Shown here piece after piece: positions 4,208 through 28,697 of a DNA stretch of 42,776 bases (the first letter of the stretch is position 1; every line of letters starts with the position of its first letter). The notes beneath the pieces were generated by a model. That model was not told the DNA's origin and ran no database searches. It worked only from the letters and a program-made list of their open reading frames with translations. The position numbers were made by a program, and so were the translations under genes. The DNA is from an uncultured Chlorobiaceae bacterium (lineage in GTDB: Bacteria > Bacteroidota > Chlorobiia > Chlorobiales > Chlorobiaceae): contig CAIWUU010000141.1 in NCBI GenBank assembly GCA_903915955.1, positions 1 through 42,776 on the forward strand. Reading direction: 5' to 3'.

Positions 4208-4657
4208 TCATCGATGCTCCAATGCCCAGTTATAGGGAATCCTAGGGTCAGTAGGTGAGCGCCGCTCAAGCTCATCAGGACTATGTGGCAGAGTAGCACA
4301 ATTGGCGACAATTGATGCCGCTGTTCCAACACTTTTAAACCCATTCCAGATCATGGGCGGCACCGTTACCAACATATAATTTTCGGGTGAAATGAAAAAT
4401 TCCTGTACCTCACCGCGTGTTGGACTTTCAGGCCGATCATCAAATAGTACAAACTTGATCTCTCCGTAAATCACCGCATAATTTAAAGTCATCTCTTTAT
4501 GCAAATGCCAGGCTTTTACAACCCCAGGGTGAGTACAGGAGAAATATATCTCCCCAAATCTTGAAAATACAGGAGAATCTTCTCGCAGCATATGCATTAC
4601 CTTGCCTCTCTCATCAAATATTTGACGCAAGGGAGTCAATATAACACCATCTAGCAT
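4208..4657 (-). CDS. RmlC-like cupin, probable CDP-4-keto-6-deoxysugar epimerase
   Basis: This 149-aa cupin resembles the dTDP-4-dehydrorhamnose 3,5-epimerase-related group. The core runs through VVKAWHLHKEMTLNYAVIYGEIKFVLFD and VPPMIWNGFKSVG, with a His pair (WHLH) in the sugar pocket. It is shorter than true RmlC (about 180 aa) and I do not see RmlC's usual catalytic tyrosine context. Its place between rfbG and rfbF suggests epimerisation of CDP-4-keto-6-deoxyglucose at C3 and/or C5. The ATG overlaps the rfbG stop (TAG at 4651) and has a good GGAG ribosome site inside the end of rfbG, so translation is probably coupled. Confidence 0.75.
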   Translation of the reverse strand: MLDGVILTPLRQIFDERGKVMHMLREDSPVFSRFGEIYFSCTHPGVVKAWHLHKEMTLNYAVIYGEIKFVLFDDRPESPTRGEVQEFFISPENYMLVTVPPMIWNGFKSVGTAASIVANCATLPHSPDELERRSPTDPRIPYNWALEHR

Positions 4658-13829: not shown

Positions 13830-14888
13830 TCAAAACATATCCCATTCAAGTCCTGTCCCTTTAGCAACATCATGCTTTATGGATTTGCCCAATACCACAT
13901 CAAAATATTTTGTAGGTAATCCAAAACCCGGCCTGATTGCTCGAACATTCTCACGGGTGAGTATATCTCCTCTCTTGATATCTTTTACCACATACAATGA
14001 GCGTCTGAACTGCAGTGACTTTTTTTCCTGCTCGCTGCAACCATAGCTGACCTGCCCTAGAGATTGCCATGCACGTTCAGTTTCTACAACTAGTTGAGCC
14101 ATTTCAGCTGGCTCCATGGAAAATACACTGTCTACTCCGCCAGCAGCGCGATTGAGTGTGAAATGTTTTTCTATAACTGTAACACCAAACGACACGCTTG
14201 CAACAGAAACACCAACTCCCATTGTATGATCCGATAGCCCCACTTCACAGTCAAACAGCTCCCGGAGATGAGGAATGGTCACAAGATTTGTATTTGCAGG
14301 AGTAGCTGGATAGCTGCTTGTACATTTGAGCAATATCAAATCTTTACACCCTGCATTTCGTGCTGCGCGAACAGTTTCATCCAATTCACCTGCGGTAGCC
14401 ATACCTGTAGAGATAATCAATGGTTTACCCGTAGCTGCAACTCGCTTTATCAACGCAATATCGGTGTTCTCAAAAGAGGCGATTTTGTAGCATGGAATAT
14501 CAAGTGTTTCAAGAAAATCTACCGAAGTATCATCAAACGGCGTACTGAAAACAATAAGACCAAGCTCACGAGCTCGGTCGAAAATAGGTTTATGCCACTC
14601 CCAGGGAGTATCAGCCTCGCCGTAGAGTTTATAAAGTGATGTGCCTGACCATAAACTGCCTGGATCGCTGATATGAAACTCACGCTCGTCGATATCAATG
14701 GTCATAGTGTCGGGTGTATAAGTCTGGATTTTCAGTGCATGAGCACCCGACCCGGCGGCAGCCTCAACAATTTTCAGTGCACGGTCAAGAGAGTGATTAT
14801 GGTTCCCTGACATTTCGGCGATGATGAAGGGCGGATGGTTTTTTCCTATTAACCGACTGCCAATTTTGATACCTTCAGCCATGAGCAT
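13830..14888 (-). CDS. pseI: Pseudaminic acid synthase
   Basis: The enzyme condenses 2,4-diacetamido-2,4,6-trideoxy-L-altrose with phosphoenolpyruvate to give pseudaminic acid. The NeuB-type TIM barrel shows FIIAEMSGNHNHSLDRAL, ALKIQTYTPDT, VFSTPFDDTSVDFLE, KIASFENTD, LLKCTSSYPA, GLSDHT and IEKHFTLNR. The last 60 residues form the SAF (antifreeze-like) domain with RRSLYVVKDIKRGD. The 352-aa length fits PseI. Start: the ATG at 14888 has AGAGG just upstream, inside the end of the pseG-pseH gene (14-base overlap). It is the last enzyme of the pseudaminate set except CMP activation. Confidence 0.92.
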   Translation of the reverse strand: MLMAEGIKIGSRLIGKNHPPFIIAEMSGNHNHSLDRALKIVEAAAGSGAHALKIQTYTPDTMTIDIDEREFHISDPGSLWSGTSLYKLYGEADTPWEWHKPIFDRARELGLIVFSTPFDDTSVDFLETLDIPCYKIASFENTDIALIKRVAATGKPLIISTGMATAGELDETVRAARNAGCKDLILLKCTSSYPATPANTNLVTIPHLRELFDCEVGLSDHTMGVGVSVASVSFGVTVIEKHFTLNRAAGGVDSVFSMEPAEMAQLVVETERAWQSLGQVSYGCSEQEKKSLQFRRSLYVVKDIKRGDILTRENVRAIRPGFGLPTKYFDVVLGKSIKHDVAKGTGLEWDMF

Positions 14889-16392
14889 GAATCCTCTTTA
14901 AATATGAGGTGGACTCAGCTTTATAGCCCGCCCCTGAAAACAAATGATGAGAACGTTCATTTCCTCCAAGCACAACTGCTTTAATAACATCTATTTCAGG
15001 CCTGAATTTTTTCAGCCACTCCTCTGCACTTTGTAACAACTCATATCCTATCCCTGAGAGATGAATATCTGGAACAACATAAATAGAAACATCTGCCACA
15101 CTATCCTGGATATCGAATCGAACAACCCCTACAGCAACCTCATGCAGAGTCCCGATAAGCAACGCCCTTTCAGAAGATGATAAAACCGCAGCAAACCATT
15201 TTTGATGATCACGCCATTCAATCTTGTGACTATTGCGTGATACGGCCCTGATCATGTTATGATTGCGCCATTTGAACAGGTTTTCAGAATCATCCAAGGT
15301 AGAAATTCGGATCTCTATCCCGCTACAGCGCATTTCTCTGATTACTCGTAAAACGCCTTTTCCATCTACAGCACAAAAAGCGTTACGCGAAAGTAGTCGA
15401 AGTAGGTTGGTATTTTCAATGAGTGCAAACAGATGACGATGTATCGAACCGGTAACATCTTCATCGGTGTCAGGTGCATACAATAAACCTTCACAAGCTG
15501 CATCTCTGACCTGCATGATCTGATTTTCAGCAGTAGCAATAGCAATGGTGGGCAAACCCAAGCAACAGCGCTCCCAGGTTGCAGAACCACCTGCTCCTAT
15601 CGCAAGATCGGCAGCAGCCATCAACTCACCCATGCGGCTGGTTTGAACATGGGAAGTAAATTCACGGGCAGCACATAAAGCTTCAATCTGCGCTCTGAAT
15701 GGGTTTTGCAGACCAATAACCACATCAACATGAATGCTGCCCAGTCTATTGCCGTCTAATGCAGAGAGAGCTTTGGCGGTATAATTTTCAGTATCAACTC
15801 CCCCAAAAAAGAGCAAAATCCGTTTTACCGGTACTGTTCGAGGCTTAAGTTGTTGACGCAACTGACGAAACTCATCTCGGAGCAATGCGTAGCGGGGTCC
15901 AAGCAACAATTTACAATATGCTGGAACTTTGCCTGCATAACGGGCTTCCATGTCAGAGTAGAAATTTTGATCCAGCAGCACATCACAATCATGAGGGCGA
16001 TCAGCAATATCATCTATAACCAGAATACGCCTGACCGTTTGTCGAAGTGCTGACTCCCAGCGTGAATCCAATGCATAGTGGTCAACAATCATCCACTCCC
16101 AGGTTTTATCTGAGAGTACCTGAACCACAGCTTCAGCATCGGCGGATTGAGTTGTTTCAAGCCAGTGAGAATGAGCCAGATCTTCTGCAAAAGAGTCGGT
16201 AGGCAGGCCCTCAAGAAGAGTGCATTCATAACCCTTCTCAGTCAAAATCTTCTGCAGATATTGTGGAAGATGACGACTTATAAATCGAATTGCAATAGCC
16301 CGGGTATGCAAGGCATCAGCCAAAGTCAGACAACGCATGAAATGTCCCGTACCTATCTGGCCTGAGGCATCAACACGAATGGCGACGTTCAT
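14875..16392 (-). CDS. PseG-PseH fusion: UDP-sugar hydrolase plus N-acetyltransferase
   Basis: The N-terminal 340 residues are PseG-like, with VDASGQIGTGHFMRCLTLADAL containing the family's catalytic His, then FFGGVDTENYT and GAGGSATWERCCLGLP. This half removes UDP from 2,4-diacetamido-2,4,6-trideoxy-altrose. The last 155 residues are a GNAT acetyltransferase like PseH, from EIRISTLDDSENLFKWRN to GNERSHHLFSGAGY. That half acetylates the 4-amino group before hydrolysis, so the fusion joins two consecutive steps. I chose the ATG at 16392; a GTG at 16401 directly after the upstream stop is possible. The 505-aa length is the sum of the two usual proteins. Confidence 0.88.
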   Translation of the reverse strand: MNVAIRVDASGQIGTGHFMRCLTLADALHTRAIAIRFISRHLPQYLQKILTEKGYECTLLEGLPTDSFAEDLAHSHWLETTQSADAEAVVQVLSDKTWEWMIVDHYALDSRWESALRQTVRRILVIDDIADRPHDCDVLLDQNFYSDMEARYAGKVPAYCKLLLGPRYALLRDEFRQLRQQLKPRTVPVKRILLFFGGVDTENYTAKALSALDGNRLGSIHVDVVIGLQNPFRAQIEALCAAREFTSHVQTSRMGELMAAADLAIGAGGSATWERCCLGLPTIAIATAENQIMQVRDAACEGLLYAPDTDEDVTGSIHRHLFALIENTNLLRLLSRNAFCAVDGKGVLRVIREMRCSGIEIRISTLDDSENLFKWRNHNMIRAVSRNSHKIEWRDHQKWFAAVLSSSERALLIGTLHEVAVGVVRFDIQDSVADVSIYVVPDIHLSGIGYELLQSAEEWLKKFRPEIDVIKAVVLGGNERSHHLFSGAGYKAESTSYLKRIHAHG

Positions 16393-16401
16393 TTGATGCA
16401 C

Positions 16402-18429
16402 TCAATTCAATCGTTTAAATCCAGCATGACATACAGGCCCTTTAAGCAAACTTGTCACATCCCGTCCATCTTCACACTCTCTGATCAAACCAAATACCGG
16501 ATCAAGAGCGTCAAAAAAACCTGCAACAACATCAGGAGTATGCTCAATACAGACATAGACACTGTTGCCAGCGATATATCCTTTTGCAAGCATCTCTTGA
16601 GTAATCAGGGTTTTATATGCCAGTGAACCGTAACTCCGGAAAGTGAAACCGGTAAGAGAAGGCAATCCCCAGTGATCGATCTTTAACCCATGCTTGTCGG
16701 CAAGCTTCTGCCAGCCTTGGCGGATCGTCAAGCCCGTCGTCGTGATGCTCTCCCATGACTTAAGACGTTCCATAACTTCCAGCGTTTTAAGTGCCGCAGT
16801 CGGGCCAATACGTTCTGTCCAGAAGGTGCTGCTGATGAAGGTACTTTGCGCAGCCTCCATTACCGAGCGTTTGCCAATAGTGGCTGTGATTGCATAGCCA
16901 TTACCCAGAGCCTTGCCAAACATGGCCATGTCCGGTTCAACTCCATACTTTTTATGCAAACCGCCAAAAGTCTCACGAAAACCGGAAGTACATTCATCAA
17001 AGATCAGAACAATCCCCCTGTGAGTTGCAAGTTTGCGCACTTTATGAAGAAAATTATCTTCGGGGCCCATATTGCGAACCACCTCCATCTTGATCACCCC
17101 GATATCATGCAGACTGACCAGCGCTTCAAGTTCCTCAAAATTGTTATAGTTGAACGGAAAGACTGTTCCTCTCAGACTTTGCGGAACACCATTCGGCTCA
17201 AGACCTGGCAATAAATGTCCTGCCAGATTTTTGTAATCTCCGAGATTTGCAGAAAGATACCAATCATGCCATCCGTGGTAACCGCAGATTGCAACGTTAT
17301 CTTTTCCGGTAGCAGCACGTGCAATACGGATTGCGATTGCATTGGCCTCCCCACCTGATCGAGCAAGTCGCACCATATCTGCCCAAGGGTGCAGTTCAAT
17401 CAGCTTTTCGGCCAAATAGACCTCTTCAGGACAATTGAACGTTGACATGTTGCCATTATCAATTGTTTTTCTCACGACATCATCGACTTCAGGATGACCA
17501 TATCCCAATGTGTTGGTGCCGATACCCATGATCGCCATGTCAGTATATTCATTTCCATCCAGATCCCATACCTTGCACCCTTTTGCCTTGCTGAAATATG
17601 CCGGCCACTGCTCGGGCAGAAACATCTCGGCACGCTTGGAAAGCAGCATGTTGCCACCGGGTATAATTTGTTTTGCTCGTTTCCAAAGTTTCTGTCCTTT
17701 ACCCATGGTGGCTCCTTCGTTACGGATGGTATGCTGATTAATGCTGAATATTTCCGGTTGCTGACGCTGGAGATCATGCACCTCCAGCCAGGTAAAATCA
17801 GTGCGCGGATGAAAATGCCGGAACACCTTTTCAATGACGATGAAATCCGCCGGGTCATCGACAGTCCAGCGCAGAGCCGACAAATCCTCACTATGCTGCA
17901 TTGCTGCCCTGGAGAAAAAAGCGGTTTCACGTAAATAGGGAGTAACATGCTCTCGTTCAAAAGATAACCGGGCTTCCCTGGCGGCCTTTTCAAGCGATTT
18001 ACCGGTAAAGACCTCAATATCAAGACCGTCTGGATAGGTGGGCGGATTGATATTGCTGTAGTAATCAACTCCGGCAGCCTTGAATCCGCGAATACATTCG
18101 TCTACAAGCTCCGGATCGACAAGCGGGCAGTCACCGGTTATCCGGACAACCACATCCGCACCGTGGACTTTGGCTGCCTCAGCATAGCGGTCGAGAACAT
18201 CATTTTCACTCCCCTGCTCGCAGGCATAGCCCAGATAACGGACATATTCGACCAACGGTTTATTATGTTCATCGGTTGAAGTCGCGACCACAATCCGGTC
18301 AATCTCCCTCGAAGCAGACAGACGCGACAGAAGAAGTTCAATCATAGGCACACCTCCAACAGGTTTCATTACCTTGTTGGGAAGTCGTGTGGAGCCCATA
18401 CGGGCTTGGACAAGCGCAACAACTTTCAT
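16402..18429 (-). CDS. SpsF/PseF-like cytidylyltransferase fused to class III aminotransferase
   Basis: Residues 1-235 form a CMP-sugar synthetase of the SpsF group (ALVQARMGSTRLPNKVMKPVGG, RITGDCPLVDPELVDE). Residues 242-675 form a class III PLP aminotransferase of the glutamate-1-semialdehyde type, with GGNMLLSKR, RLARSGGEANAIAIRIAR, FDECTSGFR and the PLP lysine K506 in FGKALGNG. The first half would activate the nonulosonate to its CMP form. The second probably transfers an amino group to a keto-sugar, since a haem role is unlikely in this setting. At the junction lies an in-frame ATG (17706) with GAAGGAG five bases upstream, so the aminotransferase may also be made separately. The start overlaps the preceding gene by ATGA. 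Confidence 0.87.
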   Translation of the reverse strand: MKVVALVQARMGSTRLPNKVMKPVGGVPMIELLLSRLSASREIDRIVVATSTDEHNKPLVEYVRYLGYACEQGSENDVLDRYAEAAKVHGADVVVRITGDCPLVDPELVDECIRGFKAAGVDYYSNINPPTYPDGLDIEVFTGKSLEKAAREARLSFEREHVTPYLRETAFFSRAAMQHSEDLSALRWTVDDPADFIVIEKVFRHFHPRTDFTWLEVHDLQRQQPEIFSINQHTIRNEGATMGKGQKLWKRAKQIIPGGNMLLSKRAEMFLPEQWPAYFSKAKGCKVWDLDGNEYTDMAIMGIGTNTLGYGHPEVDDVVRKTIDNGNMSTFNCPEEVYLAEKLIELHPWADMVRLARSGGEANAIAIRIARAATGKDNVAICGYHGWHDWYLSANLGDYKNLAGHLLPGLEPNGVPQSLRGTVFPFNYNNFEELEALVSLHDIGVIKMEVVRNMGPEDNFLHKVRKLATHRGIVLIFDECTSGFRETFGGLHKKYGVEPDMAMFGKALGNGYAITATIGKRSVMEAAQSTFISSTFWTERIGPTAALKTLEVMERLKSWESITTTGLTIRQGWQKLADKHGLKIDHWGLPSLTGFTFRSYGSLAYKTLITQEMLAKGYIAGNSVYVCIEHTPDVVAGFFDALDPVFGLIRECEDGRDVTSLLKGPVCHAGFKRLN
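17706..17718 (-). promoter_or_regulatory. Strong internal ribosome site and ATG at the fusion junction
   Basis: On the minus strand GAAGGAG (17712-17718) is followed after CCACC by ATG whose first base is 17706, in frame with the aminotransferase half of the fused gene. The spacing is near ideal. It is either a relic of the former gene boundary or a working internal start producing a separate 434-residue aminotransferase. Confidence 0.55.
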
Positions 18430-19295
18430 AACGAGGACCAGCAGGAAGGATTAATCAGGTTTTCTGCCTCACAATAAAGATCAGGCAGATGATCAGGCAG
18501 AATAATAGACGAAGCTTTAATGATTTGATCAAGTTGCTCAATGCTGTCAGCCCCAAAGACAACTCGATCAATTTCCGGGAATGTTAAGGGATACGCCAAA
18601 CAAGCCTGAACGGGAGAAACGTTCTGATCGGCAAGCCATGTATACCATCTCTTGAACAGATCACTCCACGGAGTGAATTTTGACGGGACAGCATTTGCAG
18701 GCATAAGCAATAAACCCTGTAAAAAAGCAGATCGGGTATGAATTTCAACCTCTTGATCTTTGAGACGCTGAAGCCAGCCTGTTCGAAGGAGACGACTATC
18801 AATAATATTAAACGGAGCTTGTACAAGATCAAAATGATATAGCCTTAGAAGTTCATCCAATTCAAGGGGATTATAAATGGAAACTCCGACTTTTAGCACT
18901 TTACCACACTCTTTCAGCCTGCACAACGTCTTATATAAATCTTTTCCATGAACTCCAAGCAACTGCTCAGGGCGATGAAGCAACAATGCGTAAATAGTGC
19001 TTACTCCGAGACGTGCAAGTGATGCTTCGACATGCGCCATAACCCATGCGTCAAATTGCGGGCAATCATCCGGAATCGCAGGCAGCTTTGTCACCACGTT
19101 GAAGTCGTCAATACCTGCCTGGCCAAGAGATGTTTCGCTCTCCCCGTAAGCAATAGCCGTATCAAGCGTATCAATGCCATTTGACAAGGCAAGATCAAGC
19201 ATCGCAACTATCTCCGTCATTGTCACTTGACCGGTCTTGTTTGCAATACCGTATTGCAAACCAAATTGGGCCGTACCAAGTGCCAGACGACTCAA
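18426..19295 (-). CDS. Aldo/keto reductase family protein
   Basis: This 289-aa AKR barrel has LALGTAQFGLQYG, the catalytic-region DTLDTAIAYGESE (Asp and Tyr of the AKR tetrad), LLLHRPEQ with the active-site His, and a late VFGADSIEQLDQI. It would oxidise or reduce a sugar carbonyl with NADP(H). It is translationally coupled (ATGA) to the cytidylyltransferase-aminotransferase fusion. It may supply the keto group that the aminotransferase then aminates; that is inference. The start is a TTG at 19295 preceded by AAGGAG eight bases upstream. No ATG is better placed. Confidence 0.82.
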   Translation of the reverse strand: MSRLALGTAQFGLQYGIANKTGQVTMTEIVAMLDLALSNGIDTLDTAIAYGESETSLGQAGIDDFNVVTKLPAIPDDCPQFDAWVMAHVEASLARLGVSTIYALLLHRPEQLLGVHGKDLYKTLCRLKECGKVLKVGVSIYNPLELDELLRLYHFDLVQAPFNIIDSRLLRTGWLQRLKDQEVEIHTRSAFLQGLLLMPANAVPSKFTPWSDLFKRWYTWLADQNVSPVQACLAYPLTFPEIDRVVFGADSIEQLDQIIKASSIILPDHLPDLYCEAENLINPSCWSSL

Positions 19296-19358
19296 GCGCT
19301 GAACTCCTTGTAGCAGTTTACCATCGTTTCTTTTTGCTTCATATCGGTTTTAACTTTC

Positions 19359-20537
19359 CTAAAAAATCGTTTGATGACCAATCGGCGTATTTAATTTTTT
19401 TACGACCTCCTGCTGCTGTGCCTTTGTCAAAGATGGATACATTGGCAAAGTCAGCGCCTCACTGTAATAACATTCAGCTTCAGGAAAATCAGTGCGGATA
19501 AACCCCATTCGCTCATAATAAAAATGGTGATACACAGGAATGTAATGCAGGTTAACTCCGATTCCGTGGCTGCGTAAGCGCTCAAAAACTTCACGTCGAT
19601 TAAACTCCCGTTTATTTTGAGGCAACCGAATAACATAAAGATGCATTCCGGAATAACTGTCAGGATGCTGCCAGGGTATCGTTACTGGTGAGTTTTCAAA
19701 AAGTTTGTTGTAATGCGCCGCAAGATCATGCCTTTTGGCAACAAACTCATCAAGTCGATGCATTTGACTTAAGCCCAACGCAGCATGGATGTCGGTCATG
19801 CGATAATTGAAACCAAGATCAATCTGCTGGTAGTACCATGGGCCATCAGGTGCATGAGTCATTTCGCCGGGGTCACGAGTGATTCCATGACTACGCAGTC
19901 GCACCATCTGATTGGCCAGATGCCTGTCATTTGTCACTCCCATGCCACCCTCGCCTGTCGTGATTATTTTAACAGGGTGAAAACTGAATACCGTAATGTC
20001 ACTGTAGCGCCCATTGCCAATGGGTTCGCCTTTATACTTTGCCCCAATAGAATGTGATGCATCTTCTATGATTTTAAAACCATATTTCTGACTGAGAGCA
20101 TGAATACCTTCCATATCACAGGGTTGGCCACACAAATGCACAGGAATCACAACTTTTGGCAGCTTGCCGTTTTTTTCTGCCAAAATCAGTTTATCTGCCA
20201 GGCGCTCTACACTCAGGTTGTAGGTGCGAGGGTCAATATCCACAAAATCAACCGTTGCGCCACAATAGAGCGCGCAGTTAGCGCTTGCCACAAAAGTAAT
20301 CGGCGTAGTCCAGACAATATCCTCCTTGCCGACACCAAGCGCCAGACAGGCGATATGCAGTGCACTGGTCGCACTGTTAACTGCCACGGCATGTTTCGCA
20401 CCGCAGTAATCGGCAACCACCTTTTCAAATGCAGGGACTGTTGGACCCTGGGTCAGAAAGTCTGAACGCAAAACGTTAACGACTGCATCAATATCTGCCT
20501 GGTTAATGTCCTGGCGTCCGTAGGGAATTATGCTCAT
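19359..20537 (-). CDS. pseC: UDP-4-amino-4,6-dideoxy-N-acetyl-L-altrosamine transaminase
   Basis: This DegT/DnrJ/EryC1 aminotransferase installs the 4-amino group in pseudaminic acid biosynthesis. Its sequence follows PseC closely: MSIIPYGRQDINQADIDAVV, FLTQGPTVPAFE, EDASHSIGAKYKG, and the PLP lysine K190 in VFSFHPVKIITTGEGG. The 392-aa length is normal. Its substrate is made by PseB, which is not in the window. The ATG at 20537 has an AAAGG ribosome site. It is separated from the upstream transferase-like gene by 92 bases that look partly coding. Confidence 0.92.
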   Translation of the reverse strand: MSIIPYGRQDINQADIDAVVNVLRSDFLTQGPTVPAFEKVVADYCGAKHAVAVNSATSALHIACLALGVGKEDIVWTTPITFVASANCALYCGATVDFVDIDPRTYNLSVERLADKLILAEKNGKLPKVVIPVHLCGQPCDMEGIHALSQKYGFKIIEDASHSIGAKYKGEPIGNGRYSDITVFSFHPVKIITTGEGGMGVTNDRHLANQMVRLRSHGITRDPGEMTHAPDGPWYYQQIDLGFNYRMTDIHAALGLSQMHRLDEFVAKRHDLAAHYNKLFENSPVTIPWQHPDSYSGMHLYVIRLPQNKREFNRREVFERLRSHGIGVNLHYIPVYHHFYYERMGFIRTDFPEAECYYSEALTLPMYPSLTKAQQQEVVKKLNTPIGHQTIF

Positions 20538-20543
20538 GAGATT

Positions 20544-20629
20544 TTACCTTTGAATTTGCAGTTTGATTCTATCCACGCCTGCACGAAAACGTTGCTCATC
20601 TGCCTGAAGGCTATTGAACACGGTATAGA
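20544..20629 (-). other. Short coding-like open frame between two genes
   Basis: After the stop of the upstream transferase-like gene at 20630, a shifted frame remains open for about 28 codons. It contains a plausible amphipathic sequence (NSLQADEQRFRAGVDRIKL) and ends in TAA at 20544-20546, within the ribosome site region of pseC. It could be the displaced C-terminus of the upstream protein after a late frameshift, or a tiny leader peptide coupled to pseC. No start codon is convincing (GTG only). Confidence 0.25.
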
Positions 20630-21829
20630 TCAGGAATTGGACAATGCGTTACCTATAGCCGTCCTGATTATCTCGTGTGGTGGATTAACGGAATCATAAT
20701 TATTAATGAAGCGAGACTGCTCAGTAATCATACGTTGATAATCAGCCTTAGGCGTTTCAAGCAGCGTGATCACCCGATTTTTCAATGCCTGATAATCATC
20801 ACCGTCAAAATAGCTGATCCCTGCCTCCGGCATCCGATAATGCTCGTCATTTGTCACATTACACCAGAGCACCTTTTGCCTCCAGGCAAAAACCTCGCAA
20901 AGGGTGGTCGAATTAAGCGCAACCGTCAATTCGCATTGTTCGGCTGCTCGATACGTCGAAAAATCGTTGCGGTCTGACTTGAAAATGGTAACCCGCTCAC
21001 CAAAAAGGCTTCTATAGAACTCTCTCTCCGCATCATCATCATTGCGTGGACAAATCAGCATGGTTAAATCAGTTTCAGCCAACAGTCGAGAGAGCAAGCG
21101 GTTCAATCCTGATATCGCAGCGCCAACTCTTCGCGACATTATGGCCGAATAATCCTCACCAACGATCTCCTTATAAAAATGGCCATGCCATTGCGAAACA
21201 TAACACAAGTCATATTTGCGCTCTTTTTTGCCCGTTGAAATCACACTTTTGTAGTATCCACCAATCAGGCTGCCAACAGGAATACACGAGTCAATCGTAT
21301 GGCCATGTTTGCGATAAAGCTGAACATCACGATCACCAAAACAAAAAAAATTTGTCATGGAAATATGGGCGTAGGGGTGTGGCGACTTCGGTAAATAGTC
21401 TCTTACACAGGCAAGTGTTCGCGTACCATTCTGAATGGCAAAATAGACTCTTGTCTTGTCCAACCTGCTCAAAGTCTGAAACAGGCCTGAATTGTCGATG
21501 AAGGTCAGAACAACCTTCGCTCCAATCTGATCTATACAGGCCAGCAGATACTGCTTGTACAACTGACTGAACAAATCACCGACCGATCTTCCCTTTATGA
21601 CAACCGACCAATTTATGAACCGCATACGCCAGAGAGTACGAGCCATCAATCCCGGCGTTATAACAAACTTACTGCTTTTTTCACCGTTAACCGGAAGGGT
21701 GGTCGCCGGAAGCTCCTTGAGCACAAGCTTTCGTATCCAGAAATCCGCTTCGTGAAGAATGACTATCCTGTTTTTTTCCGGACCGGAAAACGTCACATAA
21801 GAGCGGATAGCAGTGAGTTTACCGATCAT
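20630..21829 (-). CDS. Surface-carbohydrate biosynthesis protein, GT-B-like
   Basis: This 399-aa protein resembles the loosely defined surface polysaccharide biosynthesis proteins found in Leptospira-type and nonulosonate loci. Visible features are FAIQNGTRT, FCFGDRDVQLYRKHG, PVGSLIGGYY and a C-terminal donor-site-like stretch CELTVALNSTTLCEVFAW. This pattern recalls the LIC12162 family and GT-B glycosyltransferases, so it may transfer the nonulosonate. The ATG at 21829 overlaps the PIG-L gene stop by ATGA; a GTG three codons earlier is less likely. Function is inferred from pattern and position only. Confidence 0.6.
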   Translation of the reverse strand: MIGKLTAIRSYVTFSGPEKNRIVILHEADFWIRKLVLKELPATTLPVNGEKSSKFVITPGLMARTLWRMRFINWSVVIKGRSVGDLFSQLYKQYLLACIDQIGAKVVLTFIDNSGLFQTLSRLDKTRVYFAIQNGTRTLACVRDYLPKSPHPYAHISMTNFFCFGDRDVQLYRKHGHTIDSCIPVGSLIGGYYKSVISTGKKERKYDLCYVSQWHGHFYKEIVGEDYSAIMSRRVGAAISGLNRLLSRLLAETDLTMLICPRNDDDAEREFYRSLFGERVTIFKSDRNDFSTYRAAEQCELTVALNSTTLCEVFAWRQKVLWCNVTNDEHYRMPEAGISYFDGDDYQALKNRVITLLETPKADYQRMITEQSRFINNYDSVNPPHEIIRTAIGNALSNS

Positions 21830-22455
21830 ACCAGCCACTTCACAACCTCAAACACCTCCGCATATTTTACGCCAATCCGCTGTCCGGCATTCTCCGCCTC
21901 GTTTCTGAAAAAGTTGATCCACTTTTCACCGGTTCGGTCCACTTCTGTAACGTGTGCACGAATAGCCTCTTGCTTGATTTTCCAAAATTTGCTGATATCA
22001 ACATAAAAATTGCCACGGAACTCCAGGGTTGAGTGATACCAGTTACTGCGATACATCAATAAGCGTGGTACATGACGACAACTATGCAGGGAGGACTTCG
22101 AAACAGCCTGATGGTCGTGATGGATATCGCCCGTCCAGTGGGCATAGACCATATCTATTTTTTTCTCTTGTACTATCTTGAGAATCTCAATGTTCAGGGT
22201 ATCTACAAACTCAACTTCAAGGGTTTTGAAGTTGCCGCACAACATCTCTTTGACTCCCAATATCGCCATAGCATTGTGAGCCTCGATCAATGCTGTTTTA
22301 TTGGAACGAACTTCCTGATTGTATTGATCTGCAAACCCGGATATTGTGGCAACAAATACATACACATCATCACCCTGCATGGCGTGTCGAGCCAAAGCTC
22401 CGCCACAGCCAAGCTCCACATCATCGAAATGCGCACCAATTGCCAATATGTTCAT
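21826..22455 (-). CDS. PIG-L family N-deacetylase
   Basis: This 209-aa protein has the PIG-L/LmbE zinc-binding start ILAIGAHFDDVELGCGGALA; the usual AHPDD is AHFDD here. The second metal motif is HWTGDIHHDHQAVS. PIG-L enzymes remove acetyl groups from N-acetylated sugars. Within a nonulosonate set it could free an amino group for a different acyl substituent; this is inference. It overlaps the WbqC-like gene upstream and the transferase-like gene downstream by ATGA, showing tight coupling. Confidence 0.85.
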   Translation of the reverse strand: MNILAIGAHFDDVELGCGGALARHAMQGDDVYVFVATISGFADQYNQEVRSNKTALIEAHNAMAILGVKEMLCGNFKTLEVEFVDTLNIEILKIVQEKKIDMVYAHWTGDIHHDHQAVSKSSLHSCRHVPRLLMYRSNWYHSTLEFRGNFYVDISKFWKIKQEAIRAHVTEVDRTGEKWINFFRNEAENAGQRIGVKYAEVFEVVKWLV

Positions 22456-23153
22456 CCGCCGGATCTTAATAATTCTTGTGAAGTCTTTATTCCATGATTA
22501 AAGAGTACGTCCAATACACTCAGGAAGGGAACAAACTCACCGAACTGCTGGGTATATAGAGGGTGCGTAAAATCCTGCCAGATCACTTCAATTCCAGCCC
22601 TTGTAAATGGTTCTGCCTCAAAATAATCCCGCGCTCCCACGCCTGAAAGATAGTGAGTGGCGGCAACTTTCTGGAGTAAATTCACTAACAACTCATTTTT
22701 TGTGCCAACCGGATCAAGCTCGCTTGACCACACCCAGGGTATTCGTACATCAAGCATATCCATCAGCATCTCAATAAATGCCATGTTGAAATCGCGCAGC
22801 AGTTGAAACGGCTTTGCATACAATTGTGAGACTTCCGGCATCAACTCACTGTAAAATGGTGCTTTGCGATAGTTATGCTCAAGAAGGCGCAAATTGTCCT
22901 GACGCCAATCAATAATTGTGGATAGTTCAATCTGGCTGATGGCCGTATGACGCGGGGCTTTATTAACACTGACTGAAAGCCATTTTTCACCCTGAGCTGT
23001 CTTGATTTTGTCCCGATTTGTCCAGCCCCTGCTACTGCTGACGTACTGCACACTGTCCAGTGCGATATACATATCTGCATGCAGAAAACGATGAAAAAAT
23101 CCCAGATAAGGTGCAAAGTCCGGCTGGTGGATAACAACGATTTTTTTGTTCAT
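22452..23153 (-). CDS. WbqC-like family protein
   Basis: This 233-aa protein matches the WbqC-like family in its opening VVIHQPDFAPYLGFFHRFLHADMYI, then LDSVQYVSSSRGWTNRDKIK and a C-terminal SGVGARDYFEAEPFTRAGI. The biochemical role of the family is not firmly known to me. Members recur beside sugar aminotransferase, deacetylase and acylation genes in O-antigen loci, and an acyl-transfer role has been proposed for some. It abuts the PseG-like gene with no spacing and overlaps the PIG-L gene by four bases. Confidence 0.8.
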   Translation of the reverse strand: MNKKIVVIHQPDFAPYLGFFHRFLHADMYIALDSVQYVSSSRGWTNRDKIKTAQGEKWLSVSVNKAPRHTAISQIELSTIIDWRQDNLRLLEHNYRKAPFYSELMPEVSQLYAKPFQLLRDFNMAFIEMLMDMLDVRIPWVWSSELDPVGTKNELLVNLLQKVAATHYLSGVGARDYFEAEPFTRAGIEVIWQDFTHPLYTQQFGEFVPFLSVLDVLFNHGIKTSQELLRSGG

Positions 23154-24104
23154 TTAATGTATTTCCATTAGTGCGCCAATAACGCGCTGAGTACCCTGCA
23201 ATCCAATATTTCGCATACCAGCCTGACTCATTTTTTCCAAAGGCAAAACAGGGTTGAACAAGGGCTGCGATAATGATTCGTGGTACCCTGCAAAAACAGA
23301 GCCGCCCAGCCGCTGTAGCTCATTACCGACAGGTATCTCAAACAGCTCATTTGCAATCACCACGCAGGGCAGACCAGATGCATTGGCCTCAAACGGTGTG
23401 ATCCCGCCGCCGGTGATTGCAAGTTCGTGATAAGAGTACTCCTCAATCATTGAATGCACTCCACATTTTAATGTAAAACTTTCGGTCAGAACCTCATGCA
23501 GTTTTGCGATATGCATAAATGCCGCCCCAATAACAACGGTGGCTGTCAAGCCCATCTCTTTGAGAAACTGTACCACTTTAACCGTCACGCCATAGGTGTC
23601 ACTGCCGCCAAGTGTCACAAGAATACTTCCCGACTGTTTACGCTCTCGTGTGTAACGCTGAATTTCCGGATTAAGTATCAGATACTCTGCACCTCGCAAT
23701 ACTTTTGCTCCCTGAAGTGGCTCATCGGCATCAAATGCCAGGGCTGCGATATGCAGGTCAGCCAGTGCGGCTCCCGAGCCTCGATCGTCGAAGGTCACAA
23801 GCGCAATATTTGCTCTCTTGATATGTTCTGCATGACGAAGATCAGTATCAATACGGTCGTTTATCCACAAGGTGATACCGTCTTTCATAATCAGCGAAGC
23901 TTCCCAACTACTTGTGTAATCATACAGATCCACTACCCTGTGCCGTATCCCCCGCTCAACGAGAATGTGCAAGGATGGCGGATGATCATTCAGATATATG
24001 ATATATTGCAACCCGGACTGTGTCAGGGCATCAGCAAGATTCATGGCTCGGTAAAAATGCCCCATACCACGTGCATGGGAGCTTTCTATACAGATTGCAT
24101 ACAT
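23154..24104 (-). CDS. PseG/SpsG-like nucleotide-sugar hydrolase
   Basis: This 316-aa GT-B-like protein shares with PseG the N-terminal SSHARGMGHFYRAMNLADAL (His at the catalytic position), the central LVTLGGSDTYG and the C-terminal LAITGGGITPFEANASGLP. It probably hydrolyses UDP from a diamino-trideoxy sugar before condensation by the NeuB-type enzyme two genes upstream. It is distinct in sequence from the PseG half of the fused gene at 14875-16392, implying a second nonulosonate. It overlaps the cytidylyltransferase gene upstream by 19 bases. Confidence 0.82.
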   Translation of the reverse strand: MYAICIESSHARGMGHFYRAMNLADALTQSGLQYIIYLNDHPPSLHILVERGIRHRVVDLYDYTSSWEASLIMKDGITLWINDRIDTDLRHAEHIKRANIALVTFDDRGSGAALADLHIAALAFDADEPLQGAKVLRGAEYLILNPEIQRYTRERKQSGSILVTLGGSDTYGVTVKVVQFLKEMGLTATVVIGAAFMHIAKLHEVLTESFTLKCGVHSMIEEYSYHELAITGGGITPFEANASGLPCVVIANELFEIPVGNELQRLGGSVFAGYHESLSQPLFNPVLPLEKMSQAGMRNIGLQGTQRVIGALMEIH

Positions 24105-24763
24105 AGGTCAATAGCCTCTTCTGTTTCTATCCAGCGATCAGGTGCATGAGCAGCTATTGCACAAGCTCTGCTGTAGTCATCTTCCGTGTCAACAGTCAGT
24201 CGCAGACCAGGGCGGCGCTTGGATGCTGAAACCTCCAGCACTCCTGTTTTGAAAATCTCCGGATGCTCCTGAATATATTCGTTCACATGCTCCCTGTGAT
24301 TTGGAGCATGACCCTCATGCGCACTTCTCTCCAGAGCTGCAAAAGTAAATATTTCAGCTCCAACACCCAAAGGCATCATGCCAAACGAGTGGGTATAGTC
24401 GTTTTTCTCAGAAAGATGCAGCTCAATGAGCCGCTTCAACTCAGCAATATCAGTAAACGGGTTATCCGCTGTAAGCCTCACAACCTGCTCAAAACGGTTT
24501 TCCAGGGCACACTGGTAATAACGATCAAGCACATCGGTTTCACTGCCACGGAACAGAGCGGCACCTGCCTGTAAACAGTGCTCAGCAATACTATCATCCT
24601 GCGGTAGATTGCTTGTTGCAACCACCACCTTGACAGGAAAGTCGAGAAGCAATAGTCGGCCAAGCACATGATCCAGAAGTACCTTGCCAGCAACAGGTTT
24701 CAGTACTTTACCCGGCAGGCGGGTTGATCCTGTTCTTGCTTGAATAATAATACCAATACTCAT
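24086..24763 (-). CDS. SpsF-like acylneuraminate/CMP-sugar cytidylyltransferase
   Basis: This 225-aa protein has the signature IIIQARTGSTRLPGKVLKPVAG and RLTADNPFTDIAELKRLIE, typical of SpsF-type CMP-nonulosonate synthetases. It would couple CTP to the acid made by the neighbouring NeuB-family synthase. It is the free-standing counterpart of the cytidylyltransferase half of the fusion at 16402-18429. It overlaps the synthase gene by ATGA and the PseG-like gene by 19 bases, so the three activation genes are translated together. Confidence 0.87.
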   Translation of the reverse strand: MSIGIIIQARTGSTRLPGKVLKPVAGKVLLDHVLGRLLLLDFPVKVVVATSNLPQDDSIAEHCLQAGAALFRGSETDVLDRYYQCALENRFEQVVRLTADNPFTDIAELKRLIELHLSEKNDYTHSFGMMPLGVGAEIFTFAALERSAHEGHAPNHREHVNEYIQEHPEIFKTGVLEVSASKRRPGLRLTVDTEDDYSRACAIAAHAPDRWIETEEAIDLCMQSV

Positions 24764-25776
24764 GCCAGATCGCTCCAGTTGAGTACACTGTCTCTCTCAA
24801 TATCTGAGGCTACCCTACGTCCGGCTATTTGCTCAAAATATTTCGGGTCAATGCCATAACCAGGCCGCTTGACGGCTATATCATCTTCAGTGAGGCGCGT
24901 TCCAGCCTTCACGCTGCGATCGAGCACCACACTTTTACGGTTATTTCGACGGGTAATTTTTTCGCTCTCTGCAGGTCTTTTGATTCCTGTACCTCGCATG
25001 ATTTCGAAGTTGCGCACTTCTTCAACCAGCCATTTCATTTCTGCAGGATCAGCAGAAAGCATATGGTCTGGTCCATCTGCACGTTTGTCATAGGTAAAAT
25101 GCTTTTCGATCACCCGCGCTCCCATAGCCACTGCACAAAGACAGGCGACAGGCGACAGTGTGTGATCAGAGTAGCCTATATCAAATTGCGGAAAGGCCTG
25201 CATCATCGTCTGCATGGCGGCAAGATTGACATTCTCGGCATGAGCAGGATAACTTGTAATGGCATGCAACAAAATCAGTTTCTCATTGCCTTCCGCAAGA
25301 ATTGCAGCCACCGACTCACGCACCTCCTCCATTGTACACATACCGGTTGAGAGCAGAAGCGGCTTGCCTGTTCGGGCAACATAACGCAGAAAAGGGATAT
25401 TTACTGCATCATCAGAGCCAATCTTGTGTGCGCCTGCTCCACATTTTTCGAGCAAATCCACATCAGTTGCATGTGAAGGTGTCGAGAACCAGTCGAGACC
25501 TTTGGAGTCAGCATACCTGAATACATCGTGATGCAAGGCCTCGTTCACCTCATATTTCAGGAAAAGCTCATGCTGCGAGACCACACCGGTATTCTCCATA
25601 TCGAAAATCGCTTTGGTACTCGCTATGGTGTCGGCTCTATAGGTTTGTAATTTGACGGCATCGACTCCGCAGCCATGCGCCTCGTCAATCAAACGCTTTG
25701 CCTCAGCAAAAGTTGTAAAGTTACCACCGATCTCTGCAATGATGTAGCAGCGATCTACACGATAATTATTGAACAT
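24760..25776 (-). CDS. NeuB-family nonulosonate synthase (SpsE/LegI-like)
   Basis: This 338-aa protein has the NeuB barrel with CYIIAEIGGNFTTFAEAKRL, AVKLQTYRADT, WFSTPSHATDVDLLE, LLSTGM, GYSDHT and VIEKHFTYDKR, followed by a SAF domain (RKSVVLDRSVKAGTRLTED). It condenses a hexosamine derivative with phosphoenolpyruvate. It differs from the PseI at 13830: KIGSDDAVN replaces KIASFENTD and the TSYP region reads LLHAITSYPA, so the substrate is probably different. Whether the product is a legionaminic-, pseudaminic- or neuraminic-type acid cannot be decided. It ends in an ATGA overlap with the cytidylyltransferase gene. Confidence 0.88.
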   Translation of the reverse strand: MFNNYRVDRCYIIAEIGGNFTTFAEAKRLIDEAHGCGVDAVKLQTYRADTIASTKAIFDMENTGVVSQHELFLKYEVNEALHHDVFRYADSKGLDWFSTPSHATDVDLLEKCGAGAHKIGSDDAVNIPFLRYVARTGKPLLLSTGMCTMEEVRESVAAILAEGNEKLILLHAITSYPAHAENVNLAAMQTMMQAFPQFDIGYSDHTLSPVACLCAVAMGARVIEKHFTYDKRADGPDHMLSADPAEMKWLVEEVRNFEIMRGTGIKRPAESEKITRRNNRKSVVLDRSVKAGTRLTEDDIAVKRPGYGIDPKYFEQIAGRRVASDIERDSVLNWSDLA

Positions 25777-25777
25777 A

Positions 25778-26713
25778 TTATTTCCTTAGTTCAAAACAGT
25801 GAAATGCAGGTTGCTCAATACCGGGTAGTGTTTTATCAATTTCTATCAATGGATCAAGAAAAACTTTCATTATCTCTATCCATTTCGATTTTATTTCAAT
25901 TAACCTATTAGGAGTAAGTTCATTCGACATTTCGAGCAGCACTGGAAAAAGCGGTCTGAGACCAATATCCCAACTCTGAATTATTAGTTTACTCAGGTGA
26001 TAATGGTGTCGTTCAACTTTCAATCCAGAGCATTCAAACATTGACTGCCATTCGTCCAAAGACTTGGCTTGACGAATATTATCTGCAAACCGACCTCTAT
26101 CCAACATTTCAAGAAATTTCCAACGCGTATCTTTACCATTTACATACAACTGGTTATAAAAACTATACTTGGGAAATGTGATGTTAGGGAGCATCAAGCA
26201 AGCACACCCGCCGGGCTTGAGGACACGCGAAATCTCTGAAATAACAGATTGCGGAGAATCGAGCCAATATACGATGTTGGAAAACACACTGTTAAACATT
26301 TGATCAGGGAAAGGTAACGGCTGATTCGCATCCCCTTGTTTCAGCGATCCGTACAAACCGAGCTGAGATGCCTTTTTGAGCAGATTGGATTTGTGATCAA
26401 ACCCCACATCAATCTGGTATTTCGGAGATTTGGTTACTTGAACGCTAAGATTGTCGTCATACGTATCAAAACAATCAACATTCTGAAAAAACTGGTCAAG
26501 TTTTGTTACAGAACGAAATGCATCAAAACTTTTGTCAAATTCTCCTCCAGCTCTTATAAATGAAAATGTACCATCTCCACATCCTAAATCCAAAGATGGG
26601 GTAAGCATTTCAAAAGCGCTCATTGTCCTTATATCAATCTCTCTCCAAAGCGCAGTTTCTGGGCGAAGCCAAAATACGCTTAACAATTGCTCTAATGTAT
26701 TATATTTTGACAT
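25778..26713 (-). CDS. SAM-dependent methyltransferase
   Basis: This 311-aa protein carries the class I SAM motif SLDLGCGDGTFSF near residue 45, a later MFNSVFSNIVYWLDSPQ and the post-motif VLKPGGCACLMLPN. The N-terminus (LEQLLSVFWLRPETALWREID) is shared by a subset of methyltransferases in polysaccharide loci. It probably methylates a sugar or a biosynthetic intermediate. It lies one base before the NeuB-family gene and 42 bases after the radical SAM gene. Confidence 0.8.
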   Translation of the reverse strand: MSKYNTLEQLLSVFWLRPETALWREIDIRTMSAFEMLTPSLDLGCGDGTFSFIRAGGEFDKSFDAFRSVTKLDQFFQNVDCFDTYDDNLSVQVTKSPKYQIDVGFDHKSNLLKKASQLGLYGSLKQGDANQPLPFPDQMFNSVFSNIVYWLDSPQSVISEISRVLKPGGCACLMLPNITFPKYSFYNQLYVNGKDTRWKFLEMLDRGRFADNIRQAKSLDEWQSMFECSGLKVERHHYHLSKLIIQSWDIGLRPLFPVLLEMSNELTPNRLIEIKSKWIEIMKVFLDPLIEIDKTLPGIEQPAFHCFELRK

Positions 26714-26755
26714 AGTGTTTGTACGTTTAACAGTTCAAATTAAAGGTTACAGAGA

Positions 26756-27829
26756 TTACTTTCCAATGACCTGAATGCGATGTACATAGTTGCGCACTAT
26801 GAACGACCGATCGCCGACCTGAGCAGGCTGATCCTCGGTTTTCCTTGGCAAATAGCATTTCCGGCAAACCTCACTTTGTAAAAATCCATGATGCAGTAAC
26901 AGCGTGTCACGCACGGCCTGCATTTTCTCGCCATGCCAGACATCATGAACAGTTTCATGATAAATGTTACCAATAACATCCTGGTTCTCTTCATCATTTG
27001 AGCATTTCATCACCAGACCGTCAGCCCCGATCACCAGACGCTGATACTGCTGCGGACAGGTAAACTCTTCCAGATACTCAATCTCTGTATCGTTAAAAAG
27101 ATAGTCGATCAGGGGATTGAATGCCACTAAATCGACAAGTGGGGCAAAAATGTTGTAGTATGTATCAAGACCGCTCTCCAAAATTGAAGGCCAAATGCCC
27201 TGAACTTTAATAACCGGTCGCTTGAGGTTGTGCTCTTTTTTATAATTGTATATCTCCTTTATTTTTCCAAGCAAATCATCAAATTTCAGCGGTTTTCGAA
27301 CACTTTCATAAATTTTTCCTGTGCCGTCAATTGAGATGGTTATCCAATCAACGCCCGCTTCAACCATTTGTATAAAAAAGGGCAGTGCCAGTTTACTGCC
27401 ATTCGTCAACATCGATACCTCTTTAATGCCATGTGCCTTGGCATACTGTATCGCTTCGATAAATTTCGGATGCAATGTCGCTTCGCCTCGTAAACTCAGG
27501 CGTATTGCCGGTACCTTTCCATCTATTTCATCAATAATTTTTTTATACAAATCCCAGTCCATCTTCGTTACCTGTACTTTCTTCCTGAATTCATCAGTAA
27601 TCGTGTAGCACATTGGGCATTTGAGATTGCACACTGATGAGAGTTCAATATCAACAAGCAATGGATAATCCGAGATTTCTTGTTTAAGCGGATATGACGA
27701 CCAATTATGGCGATACGCCTTATACTGCTCTTCCCAGCCTTCACCGCGATACTGTTCAAAAAGAGCCTCCCTTTCTGCTGTATCCAATGAATAATTTCCC
27801 TTGTTAATAGGTACGTTATGCGTGGTCAT
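26756..27829 (-). CDS. Radical SAM/SPASM enzyme
   Basis: The cluster motif is CNLKCPMC (C67, C71, C74 from the chosen start), followed by a radical SAM barrel with SLRGEATLHPKF, MLTNGSKL and ITISIDGTG. The C-terminal SPASM-like domain has CPQQYQRLVIGADGLVMKC and VCRKCYLP. The reaction is unknown. Its place inside the second nonulosonate block, between an SDR gene and a methyltransferase gene, suggests a radical sugar modification such as dehydration, epimerisation or amino-group migration (inference). An ATG at 27847 would add six residues and overlap the SDR gene by 14 bases. Neither start has a strong ribosome site. Confidence 0.82.
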   Translation of the reverse strand: MTTHNVPINKGNYSLDTAEREALFEQYRGEGWEEQYKAYRHNWSSYPLKQEISDYPLLVDIELSSVCNLKCPMCYTITDEFRKKVQVTKMDWDLYKKIIDEIDGKVPAIRLSLRGEATLHPKFIEAIQYAKAHGIKEVSMLTNGSKLALPFFIQMVEAGVDWITISIDGTGKIYESVRKPLKFDDLLGKIKEIYNYKKEHNLKRPVIKVQGIWPSILESGLDTYYNIFAPLVDLVAFNPLIDYLFNDTEIEYLEEFTCPQQYQRLVIGADGLVMKCSNDEENQDVIGNIYHETVHDVWHGEKMQAVRDTLLLHHGFLQSEVCRKCYLPRKTEDQPAQVGDRSFIVRNYVHRIQVIGK

Positions 27830-27833
27830 ATTC

Positions 27834-28697
27834 TCATTTTTTAACATTACTTTTCAGGATGCTTTCGATTCCCTGCTGAAATGAGTATTCTGGCTTCCAG
27901 CCAATAATTTTTTCAGCTTTTGATATATCCGCTACTACATCCATCAATTCGTTAGCCCTAAAAACGTTATCGCTGATAATATTTTTTTTTGTTCCTGCAA
28001 TCTCCTGAATAATATTGATTGCTTCGAGTACACTTAACGAAACGCCTGAACCGATGTTAAAAACGCTGTAACCGGAACGCTTGTTCAATGTAGCAAGCAG
28101 TGCCGTCAACACATCGTCGAGGTATATATAATCCCTTTTTGGCATTAAATCCTTTACAGCAATAGTGTTTCCGCTGTCAAGGGCCTGACTGATGATAAAG
28201 GGAATTAAAAAGTTCTCCGCCTGGCCAATGCCGTACACATTAAATGGACGTAACGTCGTCACTGGAAAATCATAGGTGTTTGCATAAAACTCGCAAGCTT
28301 GTTCAGCAAGCCATTTTGTCATCGCATAGGGATTGCTTGGTCGGATTGCACTCTCCTCACTGATCGGCAACCGCTCTGGATGACCATAAACATACGTGCT
28401 GAGAGAGGTCAATGGCATATTTCCTGCTTTGCAAAACTCCAGAACATTGACCATGCCAAGAACATTTGTCTGATAAAATGGCTGTGGATTAAGCCAACTG
28501 TCCGGCACAAATGTTTTGGCTGCAAGATGGTATACATGCCCGATATCCTGCGTTGTAAACTTCTTCAATGTCTCCTTCTCTGCGATGTCTCCATCGGCAG
28601 AGGTTACCGGCACAACAGAGAACCCCCTGTCATGCAATAGTGAAACAAGTGCTCTGCCAATAAAACCGTTCGCACCAGTGACCAGTATCTTACTCAC
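27834..28697 (-). CDS. NAD-dependent epimerase/dehydratase (extended SDR)
   Basis: This 287-aa SDR has KILVTGANGFIGRALV, HLAAKTFVPDSW and the catalytic YAMTK, then RPFNVYGIGQ and RDYIYLDDVLTAL. It is likely a nucleotide-sugar 4-epimerase or 4-reductase; the substrate is unknown. The start is GTG at 28697 with AAGGAGAG nine bases upstream, a good ribosome site. A 141-base gap with a terminator-like hairpin separates it from the LegB-like gene, so it may begin a separate transcription unit. Confidence 0.82.
   Translation of the reverse strand: MSKILVTGANGFIGRALVSLLHDRGFSVVPVTSADGDIAEKETLKKFTTQDIGHVYHLAAKTFVPDSWLNPQPFYQTNVLGMVNVLEFCKAGNMPLTSLSTYVYGHPERLPISEESAIRPSNPYAMTKWLAEQACEFYANTYDFPVTTLRPFNVYGIGQAENFLIPFIISQALDSGNTIAVKDLMPKRDYIYLDDVLTALLATLNKRSGYSVFNIGSGVSLSVLEAINIIQEIAGTKKNIISDNVFRANELMDVVADISKAEKIIGWKPEYSFQQGIESILKSNVKK

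Follow-up and report, generated by a model that had tools for sequence, protein, structure and literature searches.

The fused gene and its join

The DNA studied here, a stretch of 42,776 nucleotides (nt) from an uncultured Chlorobiaceae bacterium (contig CAIWUU010000141.1; hereafter the window), carries on its minus strand a gene in which a cytidylyltransferase and a class III aminotransferase are joined in one reading frame. Where the two parts meet, an in-frame ATG is preceded by a Shine-Dalgarno (SD) sequence. The gene and the elements of its join are as follows.

16402..18429, minus strand: fused SpsF-type cytidylyltransferase and glutamate-1-semialdehyde aminomutase-like class III aminotransferase; open reading frame of 675 amino acids with ATG start, domains from Pfam
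17914..18420, minus strand: CTP_transf_3 domain, residues 4-172 (Pfam PF02348, 108.6 bits, cut-off 22.6)
17712..17718, minus strand: internal SD sequence GAAGGAG where the RNEG motif ends; it comprises the codons of Glu238 and Gly239 plus one base (the first) of the Ala240 codon
17704..17706, minus strand: internal ATG, Met242, in frame, the proposed second start codon
16405..17706, minus strand: proposed free aminotransferase of 434 amino acids (Met242 to residue 675), stop codon excluded

The minus-strand sequence of the join, given 5' to 3', is CGT AAC GAA GGA GCC ACC ATG GGT. Five bases (17711-17707) separate GAAGGAG from the ATG, which is codon 242 and in frame. A first-pass annotation of the DNA had placed this site between the two domains, and Pfam matches and the predicted structure confirmed that position. 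Aminotran_3 (PF00202) matched residues 277-580 with 141.1 bits (cut-off 30.5), which identifies the second half as a class III aminotransferase, and PRK06209, the top NCBIfam match of the fused protein, begins at residue 242. The scores of the aminotransferase half were below the equivalog cut-offs of both PRK06209 (241.6 bits, cut-off 486) and HemL (180.1 bits, cut-off 527.3); judged by these scores, it is a relative of glutamate-1-semialdehyde 2,1-aminomutase and a different enzyme. The label SpsF-type for the cytidylyltransferase half denotes resemblance to annotated relatives and not a model match. Lys506 in the motif FGKALG was invariant across 42 alignment rows and is presumably the pyridoxal phosphate lysine.

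The structure predicted for the whole protein from the 42-row alignment had a mean predicted local distance difference test score (pLDDT) of 86.2 and a predicted template modelling score (pTM) of 0.73. In this model residues 214-223 form the final helix of the first domain, and the aminotransferase part has its first helix from residue 244 on, with neither a strand nor a helix of four or more residues in between (residues 224-243). Confidence drops just past the join (pLDDT below 50 at residues 257-272).

The 37 open reading frames chosen in the window contain 248 internal in-frame ATGs; five of them had a contiguous SD match of at least 6 nt to TAAGGAGGTGA, and three of these five lie in the fused gene itself (Met29, Met242 and Met454). 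An internal ATG with a strong SD match in one sequence is unremarkable by itself; what goes beyond chance, on comparison of sequences, is the location of this site right between the domains and the way it behaves among homologues. The ATGs at codons 29 (18345-18343) and 454 (17070-17068) are each preceded by GGAGGTG. A promoter scan of positions 14800-20700 gave five promoter-like sites compared to 8.9 in shuffled sequences. An internal promoter was rejected; the nearest minus-strand site 5' of Met242 (18369-18341) is more than 600 nt away. No structured RNA was found in Rfam at gathering scores between positions 14000 and 21000.

Signatures of the proposed internal start in homologues

Homologues were collected from the organism's own genome, its genus group and order, a genome collection, viral contigs, and further orders and classes. 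Loci (numbered L) from the genome collection were the best-scoring 80 matches listed and are hence biased towards full-length matches. Two fused loci with a stop inside the matched stretch (L086 and L147) and 11 identical copies were dropped, which left 106 non-identical fused homologues, including L085 despite a frame change of its match near residue 618. A repeat over genomes already covered had added a single fused row, a copy of L048. Tests of the compact join were done on 88 of these, in which an RNEG-like motif with Gly239 is followed by two residues and then by position 242. By our own count, the other 18 comprise nine with longer linkers and nine lacking Gly239. The viral contig locus L117 belongs to the 106 and is outside the 88, and the plasmid loci L185 and L186 are outside all counts.

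Codon 242 was start-like in 74 of the 106 fused homologues (63 ATG, nine TTG, two GTG); such rows are called start-bearing below. Among the compact rows, Met242 was present in 60 of 88, and TTG or GTG in nine more. In the codon tests, expectations were derived from each gene's own codon use. Leu242 was encoded by TTG in 9 of 24 cases versus 4.1 expected (z 2.7). At Gly239, start-bearing rows used GGA in 43 of 72 cases versus 17.1 expected (z 7.7), the first of 37 glycine columns (next 3.7), and rows without a start codon in 6 of 25 versus 7.7 expected. GAA was found at Glu238 in 51 of 60 rows with a start codon (37.1 expected) and in 10 of 20 without one (12.3 expected). When the start-bearing compact rows were ordered from low to high by their GC content at third codon positions (GC3), GGA239 was present in 11 of 21 (8.5 expected), 13 of 22 (4.8 expected), 12 of 17 (2.0 expected) and 6 of 9 (0.9 expected); the excess is pronounced in genes that seldom use GGA elsewhere. 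Outside serine columns, GGA239 was the strongest codon preference among 310 conserved columns (371 in the subset with GC3 of at least 0.3). In compact rows, GGA was present versus absent in 42 and 27 rows with a start codon and in 4 and 15 without (Fisher's test, p 0.0036, uncorrected for kinship). Further, for each codon the best preceding SD match was compared with synonymous shuffles; of the 669 positions, 242 came first in start-bearing rows (z 8.2) and ranked 510th in the remaining rows (z -0.9).

RNA structure was assessed over 42 nt surrounding position 242, again relative to synonymous shuffles. In the 69 start-bearing rows folding was weaker than in the shuffles by 1.35 kcal (z 5.95), and in the 19 rows without a start codon the difference was just +0.07 kcal. 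At 77 control positions of the start-bearing rows, the mean z was -0.83 (standard deviation 1.45, maximum 2.65). With both SD codons held fixed, z at position 242 was 2.97, and 2.75 in the 48 rows with GC3 of at least 0.3. Real start codons have been reported to lie in weakly structured RNA and internal AUGs usually not, according to the parts of PMC3121790 consulted.

The primary start of the fused gene in the window has an SD match of 3 nt only. Of 53 start-bearing rows, 46 had a longer SD match at the internal site than at the primary start and three a shorter one; 21 of the 88 compact rows were not scorable in this comparison. As an argument, the longer internal match is weak. In the organism's own genome AAGGAG precedes rplW and infA, as read by eye, and the SD at many starts is weak. 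An exact-pattern search for the 16S tail in this genome gave no match, and the tail is perhaps absent from the assembly.

Separate and fused homologues were also compared at the join, as the first-pass annotation had proposed. Unfused aminotransferases were found at 23 loci representing 21 distinct places (L032 repeats L012, and L180 repeats L099). Most have a possible start codon at the equivalent of Met242 or within about 10 residues of it, as judged by eye; L103 and L183 do not. Together with the first helix of the modelled aminotransferase at residue 244, these starts indicate that the downstream part can stand alone, in line with the earlier remark that the 434 residues after the internal ATG are the normal length of a complete class III aminotransferase. 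A cytidylyltransferase gene lies directly 5' of the unfused aminotransferase in five places (L012, L111, L115, L138 and L168), a weak cytidylyltransferase match is found upstream in L175, and in Halorussus the two are annotated as separate genes. In L099, whose aminotransferase part is 84% identical to the window protein, the gene overlaps a different upstream gene that looks nucleotidyltransferase-like by eye and has no NCBIfam match. Rhodoferax L103 has no cytidylyltransferase match within its 9.4 kb of sequence. Its aminotransferase frame (4001-5383) retains a relic of a cytidylyltransferase end, ERNEGAELGSGQK (RNEGAE), with CTC replacing ATG, and AAGGAG precedes a TTG further upstream, possibly as a new SD sequence and start. 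The RNEG motif was present in 6 of 29 unfused cytidylyltransferase frames, and five of these six adjoin a separate aminotransferase; GGA encoded the glycine of the motif in none of the six (2.0 expected).

Kinship and competing explanations

From the anatomy of the join, its conservation, the codon and RNA-structure signatures and the possible starts of unfused homologues, we infer initiation at Met242, activity of the free enzyme and a reason for keeping both forms. The internal site is probably a working start, maintained by selection, through which this gene of a pseudaminic-acid-type cluster yields free aminotransferase as well as the fusion. The earlier proposal that one gene gives both products is thus backed by comparative signatures (start codon, SD codons, RNA structure and starts of unfused genes), though in 32 of the 106 fused homologues codon 242 is not a start codon.

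The influence of kinship was controlled in several ways. After thinning of the rows to less than 80% identity, the GGA excess had a z of 5.2 (rank 1 of 36), and at less than 75% a z of 3.2 (mean rank 1.4), with means of 55 and 44 start-bearing rows left. In phylogenetic regressions over the 88 rows, a start codon was associated with GGA (+0.47, t 3.41, p 0.001, lambda 0.875) and with the structure difference (+1.49 kcal, t 2.72, p 0.008, lambda 0). The GGA contrast at column 239 was the largest of 36 glycine columns (t 3.42, next 2.54), and the structure contrast at 242 the most positive of 78 positions (t 2.79, next 2.24). The distribution of GGA at position 239 over the 88 rows required 25 changes.

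A number of results weigh against a selected internal start. The GGA excess was lost upon thinning to less than 70% (z 0.9, mean rank 8.6) and less than 65% identity (z -0.3, mean rank 24.8), where means of 31 and 21 start-bearing rows were left. In the phylogenetic model the GGA mean of start-bearing rows alone was not above zero (t 0.25; one of 15 control columns reaches t 1.39 in this test), only four supported pairs were available for an independent-pairs test, and control position 628 had a larger structure contrast of opposite sign (t -3.52). In the 21 rows with GC3 below 0.3, z of the structure test with fixed SD codons was only 1.32. The internal SD match was longer than the primary one also in 9 of 14 rows without a start codon (shorter in none), as part of that match comes from RNEG itself, and weak SD matches are common at starts of this genome. 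Column 242 is M, L, I or V in 86 of the 88 compact rows, and this near-constant hydrophobicity makes a structural reason for Met possible. When all 106 rows were scanned, the highest peak was at position 535 (z 10.2, with a weak absolute match), which adjoins two serine columns with strong AGC preference. High z values of other codon columns (GGG at Gly455, 7.6 in the subset with GC3 of at least 0.3; several serine columns, 6-11) imply that shared ancestry contributes, and kinship could inflate the start-codon-dependent signals. The lack of a start codon in 32 of the 106 indicates that a free aminotransferase would not be universal among the fused homologues. A lack of conservation among fused homologues, which the first-pass annotation had named, together with a missing initiation signal, as evidence against internal initiation, was looked for and not seen, the start being kept in the other 74. 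Within the limits set by the thinning results and the few independent pairs, the site is conserved beyond the needs of the protein.

At the two conserved adjacent serine codons in residues 533-537, AGC is strongly preferred in start-bearing and other rows alike, perhaps due to the two-box serine code and ancestry.

In one competing view, ATG and SD sequence are left over from a separate aminotransferase gene and were kept by kinship and by the protein constraint on RNEG, with occasional initiation having no function. The strong phylogenetic signal of GGA239, the loss of its excess on thinning below 70%, the homologues that lack the start codon and the presence of RNEG, a protein motif, in unfused cytidylyltransferase frames as well would all be expected from such a relic. 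Yet none of 36 other glycine columns of the same rows had a comparable excess (next z 3.7) when own codon use was considered, and the 25 changes of GGA239 do not suggest one frozen codon. Moreover, the relief of structure has a lambda of 0 and depends on the start codon, and both start-codon contrasts are, in the direction expected, larger than those of the controls. A functionless relic therefore appears unlikely, but it is the most serious of the competing explanations.

Ribosome pausing, by which an SD-like stretch at the domain boundary would slow ribosomes so that the first domain can fold, with the ATG being incidental, would account for the location of the site, and SD-linked intragenic pausing is discussed in the literature (in the part of PMC5100845 consulted). 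Pausing needs no start codon, however, and the bias towards GGA and GAA and the loss of structure were seen only where codon 242 can initiate; in addition, coding regions are described in the same part of that source as generally avoiding SD matches. We therefore consider this explanation very improbable. Least credible of all is chance in this one genome, that is, an in-frame ATG which happens to follow the purines encoding RNEG and has no history. The five strong SD matches among the 248 internal ATGs agree with it, but Met242 in 60 of 88 compact homologues, TTG or GTG in nine more, and the location near the point where unfused aminotransferases begin do not.

Gene neighbourhood, spread of the fusion and related systems

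The genes next to the fused gene belong largely to the pseudaminic acid pathway.

19359..20537, minus strand: pseC, transaminase of the pseudaminic acid pathway (TIGR03588, 570.6 bits, cut-off 423.5)
18426..19295, minus strand: aldo/keto reductase, KidO-like (below the cut-off of that equivalog), upstream; its 3' end shares 4 nt with the fused gene at the first ATG of the latter
14875..16401, minus strand: PseG-PseH fusion, downstream (TIGR03590, 308.6, cut-off 153.55; TIGR03585, 60.1, below the cut-off of 93.1)
13830..14888, minus strand: pseI, pseudaminic acid synthase (TIGR03586, 502.6 bits, cut-off 340.25)

PseC, PseG and PseI equivalogs thus adjoin the fused gene; PseB was not found above cut-off among the 15 window proteins scanned with NCBIfam. 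A Pseudosulfitobacter plasmid carries the identical gene set in the same order, plus pseB, a GNAT and a hypothetical protein. Because of its neighbours and this parallel, the window gene is regarded as a member of a pseudaminic-acid-type nonulosonic acid cluster and would serve in making a surface sugar. In the parts of PMC7439481 consulted, delivery of legionaminic acid to the spore surface depends on SpsF, a Bacillus subtilis cytidylyltransferase of similar type, which takes the last place in a proposed CMP-legionaminic acid pathway (CMP, cytidine monophosphate); complementation of its mutant failed. An 8-amino-3,5,7,8,9-pentadeoxynonulosonic acid has been reported from Flexibacter maritimus (PMC3210612, seen in part). 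That the aldo/keto reductase and the aminotransferase of the fused gene make such an 8-amino sugar is a guess.

A second nonulosonic-acid-type cassette was observed beside the Pse genes (window positions 22452-28697).

27834-28697: LegB-like dehydratase (below cut-off)
24760-25776: NeuB/PseI-like synthase (below both equivalog cut-offs)
24086-24763: small cytidylyltransferase-like protein
23154-24104: PseG-like protein
22452-23153: WbqC protein

The first-pass annotation had also considered that the two genes were fused recently when a stop codon was lost. This was not supported: within the window's genus group, 5 of 65 genomes (its own included) share the compact join, which was also present, among the matches listed, in records whose titles name many phyla, and on a tree of the aminotransferase the fused forms are interspersed with split ones (at least 15 changes, seven of them forced by supported branches). 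Cultured bacteria with the compact join include Massilia sp. ZL223 and Marinobacter persicus. The interleaving implies that joins or splits happened repeatedly. The neighbours of the window gene in this tree are Betaproteobacteria and other non-Chlorobium rows, with modest support, which points to lateral transfer. Two plasmid records matched, as did 17 viral contig loci, mainly distant or with the aminotransferase only; one distant aminotransferase-only record was found in phages, and no match was obtained by blastn in E. coli genomes. Family members were also seen in records titled as metagenome-assembled genomes of Methanobrevibacter (L111) and Bifidobacterium breve (L073), where mis-binning seems possible. 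Fusions with longer linkers (L011, L079, L093, L095, L105 and L181), several of which retain a cytidylyltransferase tail past the motif (RNEGY/F...), are probably independent joins; L093 and L095 retain an in-frame ATG ahead of the aminotransferase part.

The proposed course of events is as follows. A cytidylyltransferase gene would have been joined to the aminotransferase gene following it, whose start codon stayed. The codons of the last conserved cytidylyltransferase motif (Arg-Asn-Glu-Gly) and of the adjoining Ala would then double as SD sequence of the aminotransferase. Ribosomes initiating at the first ATG, probably through translational coupling with the aldo/keto reductase gene that ends there, would yield the fusion of 675 amino acids, and others would begin at Met242 and make the free enzyme of 434 amino acids. 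The cell would thereby hold more aminotransferase than cytidylyltransferase in the nonulosonic acid pathway. A more far-reaching version is put forward tentatively and with less confidence than the working start itself: the fusion may have spread laterally across many phyla, its second start being selected via synonymous codons and RNA structure with RNEG-A as ribosome-binding site, and the free aminotransferase may assemble with subunits of the fusion and determine how much amination takes place relative to CMP activation; the product, made together with the neighbouring aldo/keto reductase, would perhaps be an 8-amino nonulosonic acid.

One gene giving two proteins through an in-frame second start is likewise found for Cas11 (from cas8/cas10 genes) and the short forms of CheA, CcmM and SsaQ/SpaO, in which the short form is the C-terminal part and has its own role (PMC11899642 and PMC11005335, both seen in part). 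In those systems the short product was shown by mutation, proteomics or profiling, whereas the present case is proposed from sequence comparison; unlike them, its long form fuses two enzymes also found as separate genes. In Vibrio B9-25K2, a Pse-type cluster has been described in which an SpsF-like cytidylyltransferase is fused to a further enzyme of the cluster and was suggested to replace the NeuA homologue; its partner is an aldo/keto reductase instead of a class III aminotransferase, and the part of the source consulted does not mention an internal start (PMC7371886). The same kind of fusion was observed in Massilia L041 (2384-3997), where a second cytidylyltransferase-like domain fused to a KidO-like aldo/keto reductase lies directly 5' of the cytidylyltransferase-aminotransferase fusion, two distinct cytidylyltransferase fusions thus standing side by side.

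A nucleotidyltransferase and a pyridoxal phosphate-dependent aminotransferase are likewise combined in one protein and pathway in Tde1415 of a phosphonate pathway, the AEPT domain of which is a 2-aminoethylphosphonate transaminase of that other pathway; no internal start is mentioned in the part consulted (PMC6697681). In the O-antigen cluster of Legionella pneumophila serogroup 6, PseG, a glutamate-1-semialdehyde-aminomutase-like protein and an acylneuraminate cytidylyltransferase adjoin (Lp6_763-765; PMC3694923, seen in part). These are separate genes, unlike in the window, and the likeness is one of described annotation. The name of the Tde1415 fusion we take to be PntC-AEPT.

Among the matches listed from open-licence papers, surveyed by titles and abstract openings, an internal start in a cytidylyltransferase-aminotransferase fusion was not described, and the main text of PMC13317340 on Clostridium Pse does not contain the words 'fusion', 'fused', 'bifunctional' or 'SpsF'. 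In-frame internal initiation as a kind and fusions of SpsF-like domains in such clusters are already known. As far as the literature was searched, what is new is the cytidylyltransferase-aminotransferase family, the proposed ribosome-binding site that its RNEG codons provide, and the sequence comparisons in favour of it.

The split of homologues by start codon, applied here to SD codon bias and RNA structure, can be carried over to any other bacterial gene fusion and its join. If the internal start is indeed used, automatic annotation overlooks one of two products of this widespread enzyme family. 'Fused' would then not need to mean always joined, and stoichiometry would still be tunable from a single gene.

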